A DNA stretch of 64,000 nucleotides, taken from the NCBI GenBank assembly GCA_007121555.1, contig SKKH01000100.1, positions 31,952 through 95,951 of the forward strand, read 5' to 3'. Below, piece after piece: positions 17,935-42,882 of this stretch; position 1 is the first letter of the stretch; each line of letters starts with the position of its first letter. A program made the translations under genes and the position numbers. The notes beneath the pieces were generated by a model. That model saw nothing but the letters and a program-made list of their open reading frames with translations. It made no database searches and was not told where the DNA came from. This DNA is from Gemmatimonadota bacterium. Lineage in GTDB: Bacteria; Gemmatimonadota; Gemmatimonadetes; Longimicrobiales; Gaopeijiaceae.

Positions 17935-17979
17935 CGCCGGGTCACGAATGCCGCCGAATCTCTGACTCACCACACTAGC
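17935..17979. repeat. Solo half-copy of a palindromic MITE-like element
   Basis: cgccgggtcacgaatgccgccgaatctctgactcaccacactagc is the perfect reverse complement of 41595-41639. Confidence 0.9.
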
Positions 17980-33005: not shown

Positions 33006-35804
33006 CTAGAGATCCAGCCAGTAGTCCACCTTCAGCATGAACACGTGCTCTCCGGGCGCATCGAAGATGGCCCGGGCGTCCCGGCTGAAGTCGAAGCTTC
33101 CGACCAGTTCCTGGCTTTGCCTCCGCTGTTGCCACACCAGGTAGATCCGGGAGCCCGGACGATACTCCCACCGGAGCGCCGCGGTACCCCGCAGGGAGCG
33201 AACGTTGAAGTTCTGCTCCCTGAACGACGTGTCGACCTTCCCGTCGCCGGTGTAGTCCAGGTGGATTCGCCCCTCGTCTCGACAGAACTCCCCTCCCACG
33301 CAATTCGTGCCCTGGGTGGTGGAGGTCGACTCCCCCTCTGAGAAGGTGATGAAGTCGAAGGTTCGGGCCGCCGCCAGCTGCCTGAATCCATCGAATCTCC
33401 CGGAAGAGATCAGGGGCTGGGCAAAGACCTGGAGGGAAAGGCTGGGCGAGAAGACGTAATCGATGCTTGTGTCCATCGAAAGTTGCTCGCGAGACAGTTC
33501 ACCAAACAGGTAGCGGTTGCCAAAGGTGGGCTCGAAGTCCGCGGTGATGAACTGGGTGACATACTGGGCCGGATCGAACGAACGGCGGTAGGAGGGCCCG
33601 ATGCTGAGGCTCAGGGCGTCCGAGGGTCTGGCGTCGATGGAGAGATCGGCCTCGAAGGTATGTGCCCCCCGGCTTCCCCGTTCGTAGTCCAACCCGACCC
33701 CGTAGCTCACGTCGTCCCGCCGATCGGTGTTGAGGCTGAACCCGACATCCCAGGCCGCCGGCTCCAGCATGACCGGACCGCCGCGGGTCATCACGTCGTT
33801 GAGCGCCTCGGCGGAATGGCCCACGTCCAACCCCAGGCTCCACCAGTTCCGGAAGGTGAAGTTCGAGCCCAGAGTGTAGCGCCCGGCCTTGTGGGTATCC
33901 TGCCAGCTCGAGACCGAGAAGAGGTCCTCGCGTACCTCGTTGCTCCACCGATGGAAGGTAAAGAAGGAGAACCGGTAGTCCTGGAAGATGTCTCCGGGCT
34001 GCGGCTGCCGATACGCCAGACGCATTCCGGAGTGCAGCCGCTCGGTGGAGGTCGAGAACCCCAGGTCGTTCACCTCGAACCCCGGTGTCTGCTGTCCGGC
34101 CCAGACGGCGCCGGTCCAGTGGCGGCCACCCTGGCGAGCGAACTGGAGTCGCCACTCGGCCCCGGTCAATTCAGTGGCCTCGGGGTCCAGCGGCATGAAG
34201 TCCTGATCCGGACGCTGGAAGTAGTGGTTGGGTGAGCGCTGGAGTCGAAGGATGGCCTCGTTGCTGCCGCTGACGAGAGTTCCGGCCAGGAATCCCTCGA
34301 GGGCCCACTCCCGGTCGTGCCAGGTGTGCTCGAAGTCCATTCCCCCGGTGGAGGCTCGCCGAGGCAGGAAGTCGAGATCTCCGTTCCCCGGAAGGTCCCG
34401 TTCCGTGGCCGTCAGGATCGCCCCGATCCGGCTCTGACCCTCTCGGATCTCCTGCTCGGCCCGCACTGTGCCGTAGATGGTGCGAGGCTCCACTTCGAAA
34501 CGGAAGATCTCGTCGGTCTCGGTGACGTACCCCCGTCCCCGTTCCCGGTCGGTGACGGCCACCAGGCCGCCCATGGAGAGTCCTCCAGGGGTGCGTCCGG
34601 TGACCTTGCCCGCACCCAGGATCGAGGTTTCACCGGGCAGGCTGGCGAAGTCCATGCCGTCCGGGGCCCCGCCCTGCGGGCTTCGCCCGATCCTCCTCGA
34701 GTAGAAGAGGTTGTTCTGGGGCCCGGAGAGCCCGAAGTCGAAGAGGGCGTCGTCGCGGGTGAAGAAGGGACGACGCTCGGGAAAGAAGGTCTCGAAGGCC
34801 GTGAGGTTGATCACCCGGGGGTCTACCTGCACCTGCCCGAAGTCCGGGTTGAGGGCCACGTCCAGGACGAAGGTGGAGCCGAGGCCGTATCGAATGTCGG
34901 CGCCCACCCGGCCACTGGTGTCCGAACCATCGAAGAAGGGGTTGCCCGGAGTCGAGGGCGCCATCTCGCCGCTGGCCAGTACGTAGGGCACCACCTCTGC
35001 GTATCTCCGGGGTTCAGTGAGCAGAAGCCCCTCCAATCGGCCCCAGCGGCTCACGTTGCCGTGCACCCCCTCCGGCACGAAGGCCCATTCGGTTCGCTCA
35101 TTGTCGGCGATCCGCCGGCGGGCGAAGTTCACGCCCCAGACCTGCTCCCCGTCGGCCGGGTCGAAGCGGAGCTGGGAGAGGGGCATCCGGATCTCGGCGA
35201 TCCACCCCTCGTCGTCGATGGTGACCGCAGACTCCCAGATCCCGTCCCAGGAGCCCTCGGAGCGGGTGTCCCCGTAGTCGTACTGGTCCCTCTGCACCCC
35301 GGCCGCGGTGACCCTGAACGTATAGCCGGTGCTCCTGTCGAAGTTGGGGTCGAGGGAGAACTCGAAGTACCCGGCCGCGCGGCCCGTGACCCCCCTCGGC
35401 GTGAGCTGACGGGCGATCCGGTCCGGGTCGGAATCGTACATCCGGGCCCCGATATAGAGGTTTTCCTCATCGTAGAGGACCCGGACCTCGGTTCCTTCCA
35501 TCGCGGGTTGGCCTTCAAAGGGCTCGGACTGGATGAAGCCCGAGGTGGGCTCAGCCCGCTCCCAGTCGGCTTCGTGCAGGAGACCGTCGATCTCGATGGG
35601 GCCTGAGGCCCGCGTGGCTCGGACCGTGCGTTGGCGGGAATCGGGGAAGGCTTGCTGGGCGGCCAGCGTCGTCCCATCCGTGATGAAGTGCGGGAGTGGG
35701 AGCGCGCCGCCGCGCCAGGACGTCATCTGATCGGGCTGGAACAGTAGCGGAATGAGCAGGAGGAGGCCCAGGGCGAATCCAACGGAGCTGTGGAGCGGTG
35801 TCAT
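33006..35804 (-). CDS. DUF5916 / CBM9-like outer-membrane-associated protein (paralog 1)
   Basis: IEIDGLLHEADWERAEPTSGFIQSEPFEGQPAMEGTEVRVLYDEENLYIGARMYD; ALNPDFGQVQVDPRVINLTAFETFFPERRPFF. Confidence 0.88.
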   Translation of the reverse strand: MTPLHSSVGFALGLLLLIPLLFQPDQMTSWRGGALPLPHFITDGTTLAAQQAFPDSRQRTVRATRASGPIEIDGLLHEADWERAEPTSGFIQSEPFEGQPAMEGTEVRVLYDEENLYIGARMYDSDPDRIARQLTPRGVTGRAAGYFEFSLDPNFDRSTGYTFRVTAAGVQRDQYDYGDTRSEGSWDGIWESAVTIDDEGWIAEIRMPLSQLRFDPADGEQVWGVNFARRRIADNERTEWAFVPEGVHGNVSRWGRLEGLLLTEPRRYAEVVPYVLASGEMAPSTPGNPFFDGSDTSGRVGADIRYGLGSTFVLDVALNPDFGQVQVDPRVINLTAFETFFPERRPFFTRDDALFDFGLSGPQNNLFYSRRIGRSPQGGAPDGMDFASLPGETSILGAGKVTGRTPGGLSMGGLVAVTDRERGRGYVTETDEIFRFEVEPRTIYGTVRAEQEIREGQSRIGAILTATERDLPGNGDLDFLPRRASTGGMDFEHTWHDREWALEGFLAGTLVSGSNEAILRLQRSPNHYFQRPDQDFMPLDPEATELTGAEWRLQFARQGGRHWTGAVWAGQQTPGFEVNDLGFSTSTERLHSGMRLAYRQPQPGDIFQDYRFSFFTFHRWSNEVREDLFSVSSWQDTHKAGRYTLGSNFTFRNWWSLGLDVGHSAEALNDVMTRGGPVMLEPAAWDVGFSLNTDRRDDVSYGVGLDYERGSRGAHTFEADLSIDARPSDALSLSIGPSYRRSFDPAQYVTQFITADFEPTFGNRYLFGELSREQLSMDTSIDYVFSPSLSLQVFAQPLISSGRFDGFRQLAAARTFDFITFSEGESTSTTQGTNCVGGEFCRDEGRIHLDYTGDGKVDTSFREQNFNVRSLRGTAALRWEYRPGSRIYLVWQQRRQSQELVGSFDFSRDARAIFDAPGEHVFMLKVDYWLDL

Positions 35805-36111
35805 CGACCTCAACGGGTTTCCAGCGAGGTGGAAAGGGTGGAGTGCGACGACGGACCCGAGACTGCGGACCGTGCTTTTTTTATCCACGACGGGGAGCAT
35901 ACGTTCCTCCGCCCCTTCCTTCCCCCAATCGTTCTGAGGAAGGGGGACTGATATTCGATGGGAGGGAGAAGTCAAACAGGCGCGTGAGACCCGCGCAAGG
36001 GGAGGTGGGCTCTCTGCCGGCCCCACTCGCCGCAGGGCCATGGAGTTGCCGAGTCCGTTGCCCAGGATGGGGATCTCCGGGTAGCTTCCATCTCCTTCAT
36101 CAGGATACCTC

Positions 36112-36633
36112 ATGGACCACCCCTCACCGTCTCCCGATCCCGCCGCGCCCGGCGCTGCGCTGCTTCGGCAGTGGAGCAGGCTTTCGAAGCTTCCAGGCGG
36201 ACGGATGCTCTTCTCGAGACTCCTGGGCTGGAAGGTCCCCTACACCGGGGCCCTGGGGTCCCGGGTCCAGGCGTTGGAGCCGGGGCGGGCCGTGGTCATC
36301 CTCCGGGTTCGACGAGGGGTTCGCAATCACCTGGGATCGGCCCATGCCGTGGCCCTCACGAATCTGGGTGAGCTCGCCACCGGCTTGGCCGTCCTGACTC
36401 AGCTTCCACCACGAGTGAGGGGAATCGTGCTTCGCCTGGAGTCCGAGTATCTCAAGAAGGGAAGGGGAACCCTCAGGGCCGAGGCGAGGTGGCCCACCAC
36501 GGCCGGCCCTCCTCCCTTCCCCGTGGAGGTCGGAGGGATTTCGGATGAGTGGGCCGAGGCGGTGATCCGCGACGAGGAGGGCGACGAGGTGGCCAGGGTG
36601 CGTGCGCTTTGGCGGCTGGGACGGAGCACATGA
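36112..36633 (+). CDS. DUF4442-like hotdog-fold thioesterase
   Basis: RRGVRNHLGSAHAVALTNLGELATGLAV. Confidence 0.8.
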   Translation: MDHPSPSPDPAAPGAALLRQWSRLSKLPGGRMLFSRLLGWKVPYTGALGSRVQALEPGRAVVILRVRRGVRNHLGSAHAVALTNLGELATGLAVLTQLPPRVRGIVLRLESEYLKKGRGTLRAEARWPTTAGPPPFPVEVGGISDEWAEAVIRDEEGDEVARVRALWRLGRST

Positions 36634-37646
36634 GCGAGACGCCCCTCACCCGAGATGCGGGAATCGAGCTCCCCCTCATCTGCGGCGCCATGTATCCCTG
36701 TTCCAATCCGGAGCTGGTGGCCGCCGTCTCGGAGGCCGGAGGCATCGGGATCCTCCAGCCCATCTCCCTGACGTACGTCCACGGGTACGAGTTTCGGGAG
36801 GGGATCCGGAAGATCCGCTCGCTCACCTCCCGGCCCATCGGGATGAACGCCCTCATCGAAAGCTCGTCACGGACCTACGAGCGTCGGATGAATGGGTGGA
36901 TCGAGGTGGCGCTGGAGGAGGGCGTGCGGTTCTTCGTCACCTCCCTGGGCAAGCCCGACTGGGTGGTGCGGATGGTGGAGCCTCACGGAGCCAGGGTCTA
37001 CCATGATGTGACCGAACGAAAGTGGGCTCTCAAGGGCGTGGAGTCGGGGGTGCATGGGCTCATCGCGGTAAATCGTCGAGCGGGAGGACATCCCGGCGAG
37101 CGCACCCCCGAGGCCCTCCTGGAGGAGGTGGGTGATCTGGGCCTGCCAGTGGTCTGCGCGGGCGGGGTGGGGACCGCTCGGGAATTCGCCGAAGCCCTTC
37201 GGATGGGCTACGACGGAGTCCAGATGGGCACGCGGTTCATCGCCACGCCCGAGTGTCGGGCCTCGGAGCCCTACAAGGAGGCCATCCTCGAGGCGGACGA
37301 GGACGACATCCTCTGGACCGAGCGGATCACGGGGACTCCGGTGGCCGTCATCGCCACGCCGTACACCCGTGCGATGGGAGAGAAGGTGGGTCCTCTGGCC
37401 CGCCGCCTCCTGAAGCATCCCCGCACGAAGCACTGGATGCGGAGCTGGTACGCCGTGAGGTCCCTCTGGAAGCTGAAGCGCTCCTCCCTGGACGAGTCGG
37501 GCTCGAAGGAGTACTGGCAGGCAGGAAAGAGTGTGGCGGGAATCCATGAGGTGGAACCGGCCGCCGAGATCGTGCGTCGCTTCGGCGAGGCGTGGCGCGA
37601 GGACCGGGATCCCGGGGAGCGGCTCAGGGATTCAGCCAGTAGGTGA
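36630..37646 (+). CDS. Nitronate monooxygenase family protein
   Basis: LICGAMYPCSNPELVAAVSEAGGIGILQP; VCAGGVGTAREFAEALRMGYDGVQMGTRFIATPE; ATGA overlap with upstream gene. Confidence 0.9.
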   Translation: MSETPLTRDAGIELPLICGAMYPCSNPELVAAVSEAGGIGILQPISLTYVHGYEFREGIRKIRSLTSRPIGMNALIESSSRTYERRMNGWIEVALEEGVRFFVTSLGKPDWVVRMVEPHGARVYHDVTERKWALKGVESGVHGLIAVNRRAGGHPGERTPEALLEEVGDLGLPVVCAGGVGTAREFAEALRMGYDGVQMGTRFIATPECRASEPYKEAILEADEDDILWTERITGTPVAVIATPYTRAMGEKVGPLARRLLKHPRTKHWMRSWYAVRSLWKLKRSSLDESGSKEYWQAGKSVAGIHEVEPAAEIVRRFGEAWREDRDPGERLRDSASR

Positions 37647-40377
37647 GCTTGAGGGCGAAGATGTTGTCCGGGCGGATCCCCCTGAGTTCGCGGACCTCCC
37701 GTCCGAGTTCGAACTCGCTGGCTCGCTGCCCTTCGAGGCCCCGCTCCATCCCGGTCAGCGTTTCAGCGCGATGCTGCTGCCAGACCAGGTAGAGGGTGGA
37801 TCCGGCCCGCCACTCCCATCGCAACACCGCGTTTCCGCGCAGACTCCGGAGGTTGAAATCCGGATCTGCAAGGAAGAAGGTGGTGTCACCGCTTCCGTCG
37901 GGATCGATGCGGTACCCCCCGTCCTCCTCCCGGCTCACGCTTCCGTTGCCGTCCTCTCCGTACCGGACGAACTCGAAGCTTCGGGACGCGGCCAGCTCCA
38001 TGGGGCCTTCGTAGCGTCCGGAAGAGAAGAAGGGCTGTGCATACACCTGCAGGGAGAGGGCCGGGGTGAAGGTCACGTTCATCCGGGTCTCCACCCCGAG
38101 GGTGGTCTGGTCGAGTCCGGCGAAAACGTACCTGTGGCCGTAGGTGTCCTCAGCCCGCTCGTCGACCACCGTCCTCAGGTACTGGGCGATCACGTGGCTG
38201 CGGGAGAATTCCGGTCCGACCTGGAATTCCCAGTTCTCCCTTGGTTTGTAGGTCACGTCCAGGCTCACGGCTCGGTCCCAGGCTCCGGCCTCGTCGGTGG
38301 ACCACCGTGCGGTGCCCCGCAGGGAGTGCGCGCTTCGACTGTCCGTATGCAGGCTCAGGTTCCCTTGCCAGCTCGCGGGCTCCCGGGCCAGCGGCCCCCC
38401 CCGGGTCAGACGGTCGTCGAAGGTCTCCATGGAATAGGAGATTCGCCCGGAGCCCCCCCAGTAGTTGGTCCACTGCCAGCGGCCGTTCAGGTTCGTGTTG
38501 TCCAGGAGGTAGTCGCCGTCGTAGTTCCAGTAGCCGTTCGGGCCTCCAAAGAGGGTCCAGCTCCGGAAGTGCCTTCCCGGCGTGGTCTGGTTGTACTGGA
38601 GGTGGGTGTCGAGGGCGATCCGGTCGGCGGACGTCTGGAAGCCGAGATCGTTCACCTCGTAGCCTGGGCTCGTGAGCCCCAGGCCCAGGCGGCCGGTCCA
38701 CGAGCCTGCGAACTTCTCCACCATGCCCATGGCGTAGTAGCCGGCGAGGGAGGTGGCCTCGCGGTCCACTCCGACGTGGCCGGCGTCGGGGCGCTGGAAG
38801 TAGCGGCGTGAGGCCCGTTGGGTTCGGAGGAGGGCTGCGGGCTCGCCCGTGACATAGCTGGGGCTGACCGAGGCGTTGAAGGCCCAGCTCCGGTCGGCCC
38901 ACTGGTGGACCAGGTCCAGCCCCACCGTGGTGGCCGACGAGTGGAGGAGATCGGCGAGAACCGGATCCGACAGATCCCGATAGACCGAGGTCAGGATCGC
39001 TCCGACCCGGGTGTCGCCCCCCCGCAGATCGCGACGGAGTCGTCCCACCAGGTAGTTCGAGGCGGGCTCCACCACGGCCCTCTCTTCGGCACCCTCCGAA
39101 TCCATGAACCGAGTCGTCTCCCGGGCCGTCACGGCGTCCAGGAGCCCCACCGACCACCCGTCGCCCGTTCGTCCGGTCAGCTTCGCGGCTCCCAGGATGG
39201 CGGTGGAGGAGGTCGCCTCGGCGAAGACCGCCTCCGCAGGCACCGGTCCCTGCGGCGATCGGCCGATTCTCCGAGGATACAGCACCTCGGGTGCGGACCC
39301 CACCGACCCCCGGGGGGCGCCCTCGCCGAAACGGAAGATCTCAGCTCCCTCCACGAAGAAGGGGCGGCGCTCCTGGAAGCGTGTCTCGAAGGCTGTGAGG
39401 TTGATCACCGCCGGATCCACCTCCACCTGACCGAAGTCCGGATTGATGGTGGCATCCAGGGTCAGGTTCGGGCCCACCCGGTATTTGAGATCAAGTCCCG
39501 CCCCCGCATCCAGGTCCCCCCGGCCGCGATAGGGACTCGGGAACTCCACGGCGGAATCCTCCGCTGGGCGCAGGTACTGGGCCCGGCCGGTGAGATAGGG
39601 GAGCAGTTCCAACCTCTGGTCCGATCGGATTCCCCGGATCCCCTCGAGGTGGCCGAATCGGTGCACTCCGCTGCGCTCCAGGAGGGGGGTGAAGGCGAAG
39701 ACAGCCTCCTCCTGGTTGCGATGGATGACCCGTTCCAGCTGAAGTCCCCAGAGCTGTTCTTCCTGGGGGCTGAAGCGGAGTTGACTGAAAGGGATTCGCA
39801 TCTCCACCGTCCACCCTTCGTCGGTGATGGCCGCCGCCACGTCCCAGACCGGATCCCAGGAGGTGTCCCGCCCTCCGCTCGAAATGATCTCGTCGTACTT
39901 CATGCCCGAGGGATTGGTCGCGAAACGGTAGGCCGTCTGGTGGTCGTGACGGCTGTCGAGGAGGATGGCGAAGACGTCGGATTCCGACATCGAGGCATCC
40001 CGGCGTGCCAGAAGTGTCGAGATCCGTCCCGTGTCGAAGAGGGTGGCGCCCACGTAGACCGCGTCCTCGTCGTAGAGGATCCGCACCTCCGTCCGCTGGC
40101 TCACCGGTGCGCCTTCCTCCGGCTGGAGCTGGGTGAACTCGGAGATGATCGGCGCGCTGGACCAGCCCCCTTCATCGAGGCGCCCATCCACCTGGATCGA
40201 CTCTTCTGTCCGCACGGCCTCTGCCCGCGGGGCGGAGGCGATGTGGGAGAGGTCCACCTGGAGGGTGTCCACGGCGGCTCTTCCATCGGAGGATTGGGCT
40301 TCCGCCTGCACTGGAGGAAGGAGGACAGCGGCTGCGACCAGGAGGAGGGACCAGCGGGAACGGTGGTTCGGGATCAT
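37624..40377 (-). CDS. DUF5916 / CBM9-like protein (paralog 2)
   Basis: IQVDGRLDEGGWSSAPIISEFTQLQPEEGAPVSQRTEVRILYDEDAVYVGATLFD; TINPDFGQVEVDPAVINLTAFETRFQERRPFFVEGAEIF; signal peptide. Confidence 0.9.
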   Translation of the reverse strand: MIPNHRSRWSLLLVAAAVLLPPVQAEAQSSDGRAAVDTLQVDLSHIASAPRAEAVRTEESIQVDGRLDEGGWSSAPIISEFTQLQPEEGAPVSQRTEVRILYDEDAVYVGATLFDTGRISTLLARRDASMSESDVFAILLDSRHDHQTAYRFATNPSGMKYDEIISSGGRDTSWDPVWDVAAAITDEGWTVEMRIPFSQLRFSPQEEQLWGLQLERVIHRNQEEAVFAFTPLLERSGVHRFGHLEGIRGIRSDQRLELLPYLTGRAQYLRPAEDSAVEFPSPYRGRGDLDAGAGLDLKYRVGPNLTLDATINPDFGQVEVDPAVINLTAFETRFQERRPFFVEGAEIFRFGEGAPRGSVGSAPEVLYPRRIGRSPQGPVPAEAVFAEATSSTAILGAAKLTGRTGDGWSVGLLDAVTARETTRFMDSEGAEERAVVEPASNYLVGRLRRDLRGGDTRVGAILTSVYRDLSDPVLADLLHSSATTVGLDLVHQWADRSWAFNASVSPSYVTGEPAALLRTQRASRRYFQRPDAGHVGVDREATSLAGYYAMGMVEKFAGSWTGRLGLGLTSPGYEVNDLGFQTSADRIALDTHLQYNQTTPGRHFRSWTLFGGPNGYWNYDGDYLLDNTNLNGRWQWTNYWGGSGRISYSMETFDDRLTRGGPLAREPASWQGNLSLHTDSRSAHSLRGTARWSTDEAGAWDRAVSLDVTYKPRENWEFQVGPEFSRSHVIAQYLRTVVDERAEDTYGHRYVFAGLDQTTLGVETRMNVTFTPALSLQVYAQPFFSSGRYEGPMELAASRSFEFVRYGEDGNGSVSREEDGGYRIDPDGSGDTTFFLADPDFNLRSLRGNAVLRWEWRAGSTLYLVWQQHRAETLTGMERGLEGQRASEFELGREVRELRGIRPDNIFALKLTYWLNP

Positions 40378-40433: not shown

Positions 40434-41579
40434 TCAGCCCCCGAGAAGCCGGTCCACCGAAAGGACTTCGAATTCCGGATGGTCCTCGAAGAACTGCCGA
40501 AGGGTCCAGAGATGCCCGGCCCCGAACATTACGAAGATTCGCTGCGTGTCAGGCTCGATTCGCCGGAGGATGTTAGCGAAAATCCGCAGGTTTCGCTTGT
40601 ACCACTCTCCCACCAGGTCCGCACCGATGTGGTCGTCGGGAAATCCCACCCATAGTTCGGAACGGGCGACCGCGTACCCCACGAAATCCTCCATCTCCAT
40701 GATCGGAATCTCCGCCTGTCGGGCAGCTTCCTCCATTCGTTCGCCCCCCGGGCCCGACACCAGGTAATCCGTTCGGGACGAGAGGGAATCCGCCACCACG
40801 ACACCGGCGGAGGCCAAAGCCGTTCTCACCCGCTCCACCGGAAACCCCTCGAAGTCTCCAGACAGCACGACCTCCCTGCCTTCGAGCTCGCTCTCCATCC
40901 GGATCCTCAGCTCACCGCCCTCGAAAGTCCCGATCCGGACGTAGCGTTCCAGGTACTGGGCGTGGTTTCGATAGAGCTCCTCTTGGCGGTTCAACCAGCT
41001 CAGGTAGTCCACCAGGCTGTGTTCCGAAACGACGGTCGTGCCCCGCTCCACCGCCGTGCGCCCTGCCCGGGCGAGATCCTCCACCACCTCCGGCTGGTGC
41101 CGGGCGCCGACTTGTCGGGCCTGATCACCGAGCCACAGCCCCTCGGCATCGACGCATTCGACCCGGCGTCGGCTGGATTGGGCTGCGACCCTGAAGCCCA
41201 GTTGATGGATCTCGTTCCCAATCTGGGCCTCCGTCGGATCCCAAGCCCCCGACCGATACCTCTCATAGCGGTCGTTGAGCGCATCCTCGGAGGTCGGAAG
41301 GCACTCCAGGAAGACCCGTTCCGGATCGAAAGAAGAGAGGCGTCTTGCCACCTCCGTCAGCTGGACCTGCCGATGCGGCTCGAGGATGTCCTCGATGGCG
41401 AACGTGAAGTCGTCCGAGGGGCTACCGGCGAAGTGACTGACCCCCAGGAGAACGACCCGAACGGGGCTCTCCCTTTGAGGCTCCTCCGGACTCACTGTCT
41501 GGCCTGCGGCTCCATGAGCCGTGCCAACCAGAAGTGCGGCGAGCCCCAGCGGAAGAAGTGGAAACCGGACGATCAGCAT
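40434..41579 (-). CDS. Secreted DUF5694 family protein with internal BRCT-like insertion
   Basis: Signal MLIVRFPLLPLGLAALLVGTAHGAAGQ; VRVVLLGVSHFAGSPSDDFTF..VFLECLPTSEDALNDRYERYRSG..EIHQLGFRVA..GADLVGEWYKRNLRIFANILR..IFVMFGAGH; BRCT-like REVVLSGDFEGFPVERVRTALASAGVVVADSLSSRTDYLVSGPGGERMEEAARQAEIPIMEMEDF. Confidence 0.85.
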   Translation of the reverse strand: MLIVRFPLLPLGLAALLVGTAHGAAGQTVSPEEPQRESPVRVVLLGVSHFAGSPSDDFTFAIEDILEPHRQVQLTEVARRLSSFDPERVFLECLPTSEDALNDRYERYRSGAWDPTEAQIGNEIHQLGFRVAAQSSRRRVECVDAEGLWLGDQARQVGARHQPEVVEDLARAGRTAVERGTTVVSEHSLVDYLSWLNRQEELYRNHAQYLERYVRIGTFEGGELRIRMESELEGREVVLSGDFEGFPVERVRTALASAGVVVADSLSSRTDYLVSGPGGERMEEAARQAEIPIMEMEDFVGYAVARSELWVGFPDDHIGADLVGEWYKRNLRIFANILRRIEPDTQRIFVMFGAGHLWTLRQFFEDHPEFEVLSVDRLLGG

Positions 41580-41597: not shown

Positions 41598-41759
41598 AGT
41601 GTGGTGAGTCAGAGATTCGGCGGCATTCGTGACCCGGCGCATCCGAGGTGGCTACGTTGCTCCGGATCACGATAGCGTTGCTATCGCTCACCATCGCGCC
41701 TTGCCACCCCGGTGCGCCGGGCCCCTCGGTGGATCACCGAATCTCTGACCCACCACACT
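41598..41759. mobile_element. 162-bp MITE-like palindromic element with 23-bp terminal inverted repeats
   Basis: Ends AGTGTGGTGAGTCAGAGATTCGG / CCGAATCTCTGACCCACCACACT (22/23 complementary); central hairpin cgatagc-gtt-gctatcg (41670-41686) sits at the exact midpoint. Confidence 0.8.
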
Positions 41760-42882
41760 GGAGCTCTTCGATGTATTCCTCGGCGCACTCACCGCAGATC
41801 GAGTGGGTGATCTCGGCTCCACCCTTGGCGAGGTACTCCTCCAGCTTCTGCCAGTAGCCCCGGTCCGAGCGCACCCGCCGGCACCAGGCACAAATCGGGA
41901 GGAGTCCTTCCAGGGTCCGAACCTTTTGAAGCGCCACTTCCGCCCGTCGCCGTGCCTCGAGAAGGTCCTTCTCGTAGCGGCGTCGCTCGTGGCGTCCAGG
42001 AGGGTGAATCGGACGAGGGGGACCGGTCCGGAGGGCGAGGGCACGTCGCGTCGGGTGGCATTCAGGAGGACCGGCAGGAGGCTTCCATCCGCTCGGCGAA
42101 TCTCAGCGGCGATCTCCCGGACCGACCCTTCCACACCGAGAATCAGTTCCACATGAGTCTGGTGGAAGATTCGTCCCCCGGGCGTCAGGAGATCCTGGAG
42201 CCGATGTCCGGAGAGGAGGGCGTCCCGGTCGTATCCGGTCCACTCCAGGAAGGTCTCGTTGACCCTGATGATGTGGCCGTCGAGAAGGGTCGAGAGGTAA
42301 CTCCTCGGCGATGGCCGGATCCGTGCGGCAGAGGCTTATGGTGAGTTCCTCACCCAGCTCCGGTCGATCGGGGCGTCCCACGATGGCCGGGGCCATGTCG
42401 CTGGACCATCCGAGGTAGTTGTTGGCCATGGCGTCGAGGAGCCCTTTGATGTCGGCTCGGGTGAACCCGCCCTGATAGTCGCCGTCGTTGAGGTAATATG
42501 GCGAGGGGTCCACCAGTACGAGATGGCTGAACATGCCGGCTCGCATGCGATGCGCCAGGACCCCGATCATGGCCGCGTCGGAGTGGCCCACGAAGACGCC
42601 GTCCATGACTCCGAGAGTCTCACCGATCTCCACCATGTCTCGGGCATCCCCGTCGAGCGTTGCGTACCTCTCCGTGGAATACGCCGAGAGGTCGGACCCC
42701 CCGGCTCCCACATGGTCGAAGAGGATCACGCGGTGGTCACTCTCGAATTCCGGAGCTACGAACCGCCACATGTTCGGATCGCACCCGAAGCCATGCGCGA
42801 ACATGATCGGGCGAGCATCGGTGACGCCGGTGAGCCCAACGCTGTTGCGGCGAAGGACGTCGCTGGAAGGGCCTTGAGGCAT
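41734..42882 (-). pseudogene. Decayed RsbQ-like alpha/beta hydrolase joined to PAS-domain gene remnant
   Basis: RsbQ-like IMFAHGFGCDPNMWRFVAPEFESDHRVILFDHVGAGGSDLSAYSTERYATLDG; frame changes near 42300 and about 41990; PAS text YLSTLLDGHIIRVNETFLEWTGYDRDALL then ERRRYEKDLLEARRRAEVALQKVRTLEGLLPICAWCRRVRSDRGYWQKLEEYL in another frame. Confidence 0.75.

Follow-up and report, generated by a model that had tools for sequence, protein, structure and literature searches.

A LigA-type BRCT domain inserted into a probably exported DUF5694 protein of Gemmatimonadota

Organization of the gene and its surroundings

The window analyzed here (a stretch of 64,000 nucleotides from a Gemmatimonadota genome assembly) carries a gene for a DUF5694 protein into which a BRCT domain is inserted (Table 1). 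The open reading frame, coordinates, and peptides quoted in a preliminary description of the locus, which had been made from the sequence alone, proved correct when ORF and translation were checked. An in-frame ATG further upstream, at 41642, would give an ORF of 402 amino acids; because this longer ORF crosses an arm of an inverted-repeat element dispersed in the genome, the ATG at 41579 was preferred and the upstream start is considered less likely. The closest intact relatives (genomes G074 and G260) have signal-like N-termini of a length comparable to that obtained from ATG 41579. The segment formerly given as residues 251–326 is the right one but had been numbered on the 402-residue ORF; counted from ATG 41579, it comprises residues 230–305.

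Table 1. Features of the DUF5694–BRCT gene (positions in the window; residues counted from ATG 41579).
Feature	Position	Strand	Residues and remarks
Whole gene, exported DUF5694 protein (probable) with inserted BRCT domain	40434..41579	-	381 aa + stop
Probable Sec signal peptide	41502..41579	-	1–26 (MLIVRFPLLPLGLAALLVGTAHGAAG; cleavage, then Q); basic n-region, hydrophobic core, A-x-G↓Q motif
DUF5694 core, N-terminal part	40929..41465	-	39–217; with H49 (41433–41435) and E92 (41304–41306)
Insert	40638..40928	-	218–314; absent from 25 other DUF5694 proteins
BRCT fold proper	40662..40892	-	230–306; NCBIfam, PDB, and AlphaFold2 matches
DUF5694 core, C-terminal part	40437..40637	-	315–381; YKRN helix, GAGH motif, H356 (40512–40514)

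The repeat is a MITE-like element of ∼162 bp, several arm pairs of which face each other ∼139 bases apart, and one copy lies directly upstream of the gene. Its 23-base arm (AGTGTGGTGAGTCAGAGATTCGG) was found in the window at 41598–41620 (plus strand), 41737–41759, and 17954–17976 (both minus strand); with up to two mismatches allowed, it occurs 39 times in the genome and not once in the control. At 41688–42882 (minus strand), an α/β-hydrolase ORF (PF00561) overlaps a PAS-like ORF in another frame, and the two may constitute one hydrolase–PAS gene carrying a frameshift. Downstream, on the same strand, two DUF5916 proteins are encoded, each CBM9-like in its N-terminal domain (33006–36113 and 37624–40377, minus strand), the nearer lying 56 bases past the BRCT-insert gene; they are not conserved beside the other carriers. 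No shared gene neighborhood was seen across the source genome (G000; DUF5916), G074 (a beta-lactamase-type gene), and G260 (FtsH, MscS).

The DUF5694 core and the inserted BRCT domain

That DUF5694 sequence lies on both sides of the inserted segment, as had been proposed, was confirmed by a full-length match to the Pfam profile PF18950 (E 4.2e-39, 135.3 bits versus a cut-off of 27.5), in which residues 98–379 cover profile positions 2–185 of 185. The match spends 282 residues on 184 profile positions, the surplus being one block of ∼97–98 residues. It sits in a loop between 'VRIG' and 'GADLVGEWYKRN', just ahead of a long helix (residues 318–340) that bears the near-invariant R329–N330 and leads into the last core strand, ending in GAGH. 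When 29 DUF5694 proteins of this phylum were aligned, 25 passed from the 'YMRFASVG' block to 'GADLVAKWYERN' via a loop of three to four residues with no insert; the full insert was present in three proteins and a partial one in the remaining sequence. The claim of an insertion therefore holds, and the alternative that the segment is native to all DUF5694 proteins was rejected, since 25 homologs run straight through the site.

No paper on DUF5694 was found in the open-access literature searched. Residues G46, H49, E92, E123, Q126, R130, N197, G353, and H356 are invariant in all 29 sequences, irrespective of whether the insert is present or not; the putative catalytic residues H49, E92, and H356 are thus retained in the carriers. 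Members of the TIKI superfamily hydrolyze peptide or ester bonds by a set of two His and two Glu (PMC6254334). The corresponding TIKI/TraB/Ere signature is present here as the putative catalytic set H49, E92, E123, and H356, and a GxxH near the start, a Glu after strand 2, and GAGH near the end are common to DUF5694 and the TIKI/TraB/erythromycin-esterase-like proteins. The TraB Pfam profile stayed under its cut-off (E 0.11), and the whole-protein model matched Ere-type BcR135 (2rad) weakly (probability 0.75, TM 0.25). By analogy, we infer that the DUF5694 protein is an exported hydrolase of TIKI/TraB/erythromycin-esterase-like type; the analysis did not turn up a TIKI member carrying a BRCT insert. 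The insert-free DUF5694 proteins have the same full domain, the same putative catalytic residues, and an apparently exported N-terminus, but they contain no BRCT domain, have a short loop at the site, and lack a pair of cysteines (C93 and C142) seen in the carriers.

The insert had been read as a BRCT domain of the DNA-ligase/RFC1 type, with a profile search and a structural model suggested as checks. The Pfam BRCT profile PF00533, taken alone, gave no significant match to the window protein (E 0.08, 13.6 bits versus a cut-off of 21.3); the orthologous insert of G260 exceeded that cut-off (22.2 versus 21.3). The NCBIfam profile of LigA (NF005932) aligned residues 212–300 with the C-terminal end of the ligase (positions 573–661; E 2.4e-7), a domain match that is, as expected, far under the whole-ligase cut-off, and a PDB sequence search found the BRCT domain of Thermus LigA (1l7b, E 3.5e-4). 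In the AlphaFold2 model of the whole protein, the insert adopts BRCT topology (mean pLDDT 86.9, pTM 0.82, with blocks of 91–98 over residues 231–240 and 261–300). A control model of the insert alone, the alignment for which consisted of the four inserts only and not one LigA sequence, again gave a BRCT domain (strand-helix-strand-strand-helix-strand-helix, pLDDT 82.5) with the α/β fold and central four-stranded sheet, so that a bias of the model by LigA sequences was rejected. All of its 50 best PDB matches were BRCT domains or BRCT-containing chains, the best being LigA (TM 0.82 by query length, 1.3 Å), with RFC1 at 2.2 Å. Thus, the BRCT reading is upheld by profile and structure and can be narrowed to LigA type: the insert is almost certainly one complete domain of this kind. 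Its fold, length, and sequence signature are those of the C-terminal BRCT domain of LigA, which was the best hit in NCBIfam and in PDB searches by sequence and by structure. The two differ in context, as the LigA domain forms the C-terminal end of a ligase in the cytoplasm, whereas the insert is embedded in a probably exported, putative hydrolase, and they differ in several consensus residues.

For these residues, the inserts were compared with 31 LigA BRCT domains of the same class. The structural positions G234, G241, G259, T270, and G276 are kept. In contrast, three residues present in 31 of 31 LigA sequences are replaced: T240 by S/A/A/A, R248 by V/I/I/V, and K282 by M/A/V (missing from the truncated copy), which in the window protein corresponds to S240 (40860–40862), V248 (40836–40838), and M282 (40734–40736). 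The Arg is a DNA contact in RFC1-type BRCT domains, and the LigA Arg and Lys presumably correspond to known DNA contacts. The inserts also share a new loop of the form G-[DE]-F-x-G-[FL]-P. In the phosphate pocket of BRCT domains, strand 1 is followed by Ser/Thr-Gly and helix 2 (α2) begins with a Lys (PMC10386641); T240–G241 and K282 occupy these places. With S/A/A/A and M/A/V at T240 and K282, the inserts do not display this pocket, which marks only the phospho/DNA-binding subset of BRCT domains. Judged from these replacements, phosphate and DNA binding has probably been lost. The earlier reading of a BRCT domain in an unusual compartment is upheld and refined: the domain does lie inside a probably exported protein, but a cytoplasmic DNA- or phospho-related role probably does not apply, because the side chains that would contact phosphate or DNA have been exchanged.

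Probable export, descent, and selection

The N-termini of all three intact carriers have basic residue(s) followed by a hydrophobic core and A-x-[AG]↓Q (A-x-A↓Q in G074 and G260), features that support the Sec-like signal peptide assigned previously; no lipobox was seen in these three N-termini. AlphaFold2 confidence was low over the signal-peptide region. Hydrophobic N-termini also occur across other DUF5694 members. In all four carriers, the only cysteines are C93 and C142, placed after core strands 2 and 3, and none of the 25 other proteins has a cysteine at either place; a C93–C142 disulfide could form and would suit an oxidizing compartment. Taken together, these features make it very likely that the protein is exported.

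Of the 400 genomes sampled from the phylum, 29 have DUF5694 above the cut-off; the figures are 11 of 159 for the order of the window and 6 of 43 for that of G260. The distribution of carriers is sparse and patchy. The intact insert occurs in the source genome, in G074 (same genus, 60% identity), and in G260 (another family and order, 42%), the last having three DUF5694 genes (L056:2276-3448, L057, and L061), only one of which carries the BRCT insert. A 138-residue "standalone BRCT" in G260 was discarded, as it is a piece of ligA at a contig end. Two further relatives lie on short contigs. In that of G082 (same genus; L004:1399-2262), an in-frame deletion reaches from the middle of the BRCT domain to the helix ahead of GAGH. 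In G068 (another genus of the same family; L026:1248-1940), the in-frame deletion is larger and the start is broken; as 'WLGDQAR' joins directly to 'LVGEWYKRN' and the N-terminus is disturbed, this gene has probably lost the insert together with flanking core. The single relative returned by a scan of genome contigs has a large deletion of its own. Other phyla were covered through viral contigs, among which no relative was found, and through plasmids. Of the 15 plasmid records with DUF5694, eight span both sides of the site and, judged by their span, have no insert; the other seven reach the N-terminal part only and are uninformative in this respect.

In a tree computed without the insert columns, the four carriers formed one side of a branch (support 99/97), and in a tree of the inserts with the 31 LigA BRCT domains, the three intact inserts grouped together (96/97), apart on a long branch. 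This position, and an identity of 23%, do not support a recent copy of the source genome's own ligA. The insert is thus inherited and no product of an assembly join, as it is intact in three genomes belonging to two families and its carriers form a single clade. The domain was captured once, probably in an ancestor common to members of two families of the class; the distribution fits a single capture followed by losses, or by transfer between families. The suggestion of a new domain architecture thus stands in that most family members lack it, but it is not confined to the window and characterizes a small clade of two families within one class. No relevant paper on an exported or periplasmic BRCT domain was found in the open-access literature searched.

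Between the source genome and G074, dN and dS were 0.38 and 1.23 for the insert (dN/dS of ∼0.3 over its whole length), 0.33 and 1.37 for the N-terminal core, and 0.14 and 1.39 for the C-terminal core; with dS near saturation, the ratios are rough and state only that the insert is constrained, and unevenly so. The first half of the BRCT domain is tighter (dN 0.30); evolution is fast in the second half of the insert (dN 0.56 versus dS 0.98; 35% identity), which may therefore be little constrained. The insert as a whole is under purifying selection.

Possible role of the inserted domain

The explanation we favor, with some reserve, is that of an exported TIKI/TraB/Ere-like hydrolase in which a captured BRCT domain, blind to phosphate, serves as a lid or as a module binding proteins. 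A Sec-exported DUF5694 hydrolase would have captured a complete LigA-type BRCT domain once, in the loop before the helix leading to GAGH; the phosphate and DNA contact residues would then have been lost, and the domain may now act as a phosphate-independent lid beside the active site, binding protein or substrate. Hinged ahead of helix 318–340, it would, from its insertion site, be well placed to cover the active site or to dock next to it. Whereas the identity of the domain is strongly established and export is well supported, its function is what we infer, and an interaction or lid role in itself is put at slightly short of even. The complete scenario, in which a ligase BRCT domain moved to the periplasm or the outside, shed phosphate and DNA binding, and came to serve a TIKI-type hydrolase as its specificity lid or as a module for docking partners, is possible but rather doubtful. 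A precedent for non-phospho, non-nuclear use is Chs5 of the yeast exomer (4yg8), the BRCT domain of which works away from DNA in a protein–protein scaffold; it differs in being eukaryotic, in lying on the cytosolic face of the Golgi, and in its FN3–BRCT module with an unrelated partner domain.

BRCT domains are normally taken as markers of DNA repair and phospho-signaling, and annotation pipelines would label the domain found here in this way. This one seems to be a repair module put to new use outside the cytoplasm, its fold kept and the residues gripping phosphate or DNA lost. The novelty lies in the combination of two known families, with loss of ancestral binding residues, rather than in a new kind of system. 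With relatives free of the insert, a clade that has it intact, and copies partly deleted, the locus provides a compact natural experiment on domain insertion, compartment change, and retention, and gives a handle on the DUF5694 family; if both the compartment shift and the lid or docking module are true, this would be a case, open to dating, in which a repair domain changed both compartment and function.

The most serious competitor, although we consider it less likely, is that the insert is a passenger that the protein tolerates, fused neutrally and having no role of its own, in a gene that is being lost. The small number of carriers, the absence of a DUF5694 match from five of the eight genomes of the genus, the fast second half of the insert, and the damaged copies of G082 (lacking mid-BRCT to the C-terminal helix) and G068 (larger in-frame deletion, broken start) would all fit. 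However, the insert has been kept since the two families split, its fold is predicted with confidence, its overall dN/dS is low, and the G-[DE]-F-x-G-[FL]-P loop is conserved. The favored reading of a phosphate-blind module also competes with one in which the exported domain still binds a phosphorylated ligand (extracellular DNA, a teichoic-like ligand, or a phospho-peptide) and aims the hydrolase at it. Single BRCT domains, those of LigA and RFC1 among them, do bind DNA or phosphate, and fold and SG motif persist in the window copy; given that the LigA-invariant Thr, Arg, and Lys are replaced in all inserts, we regard this as improbable.

Even less probable is a cytoplasmic protein, the N-terminal hydrophobic stretch of which is no signal and the BRCT domain of which resides in its usual compartment. 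Against it speak the signal-like N-termini of the intact carriers, the hydrophobic N-termini across other DUF5694 members, the clade-specific cysteine pair, and the loss of DNA contact residues. An assembly chimera of a ligA fragment and a DUF5694 gene could be imagined, as the source assembly is fragmented (293 contigs), but its probability is negligible, and an artifact was rejected: the junctions are identical in three separately assembled genomes, two of them at 60% and 42% identity to the window protein, and ligA is intact elsewhere in the source genome, its own BRCT domain differing from the insert at more than three quarters of positions.
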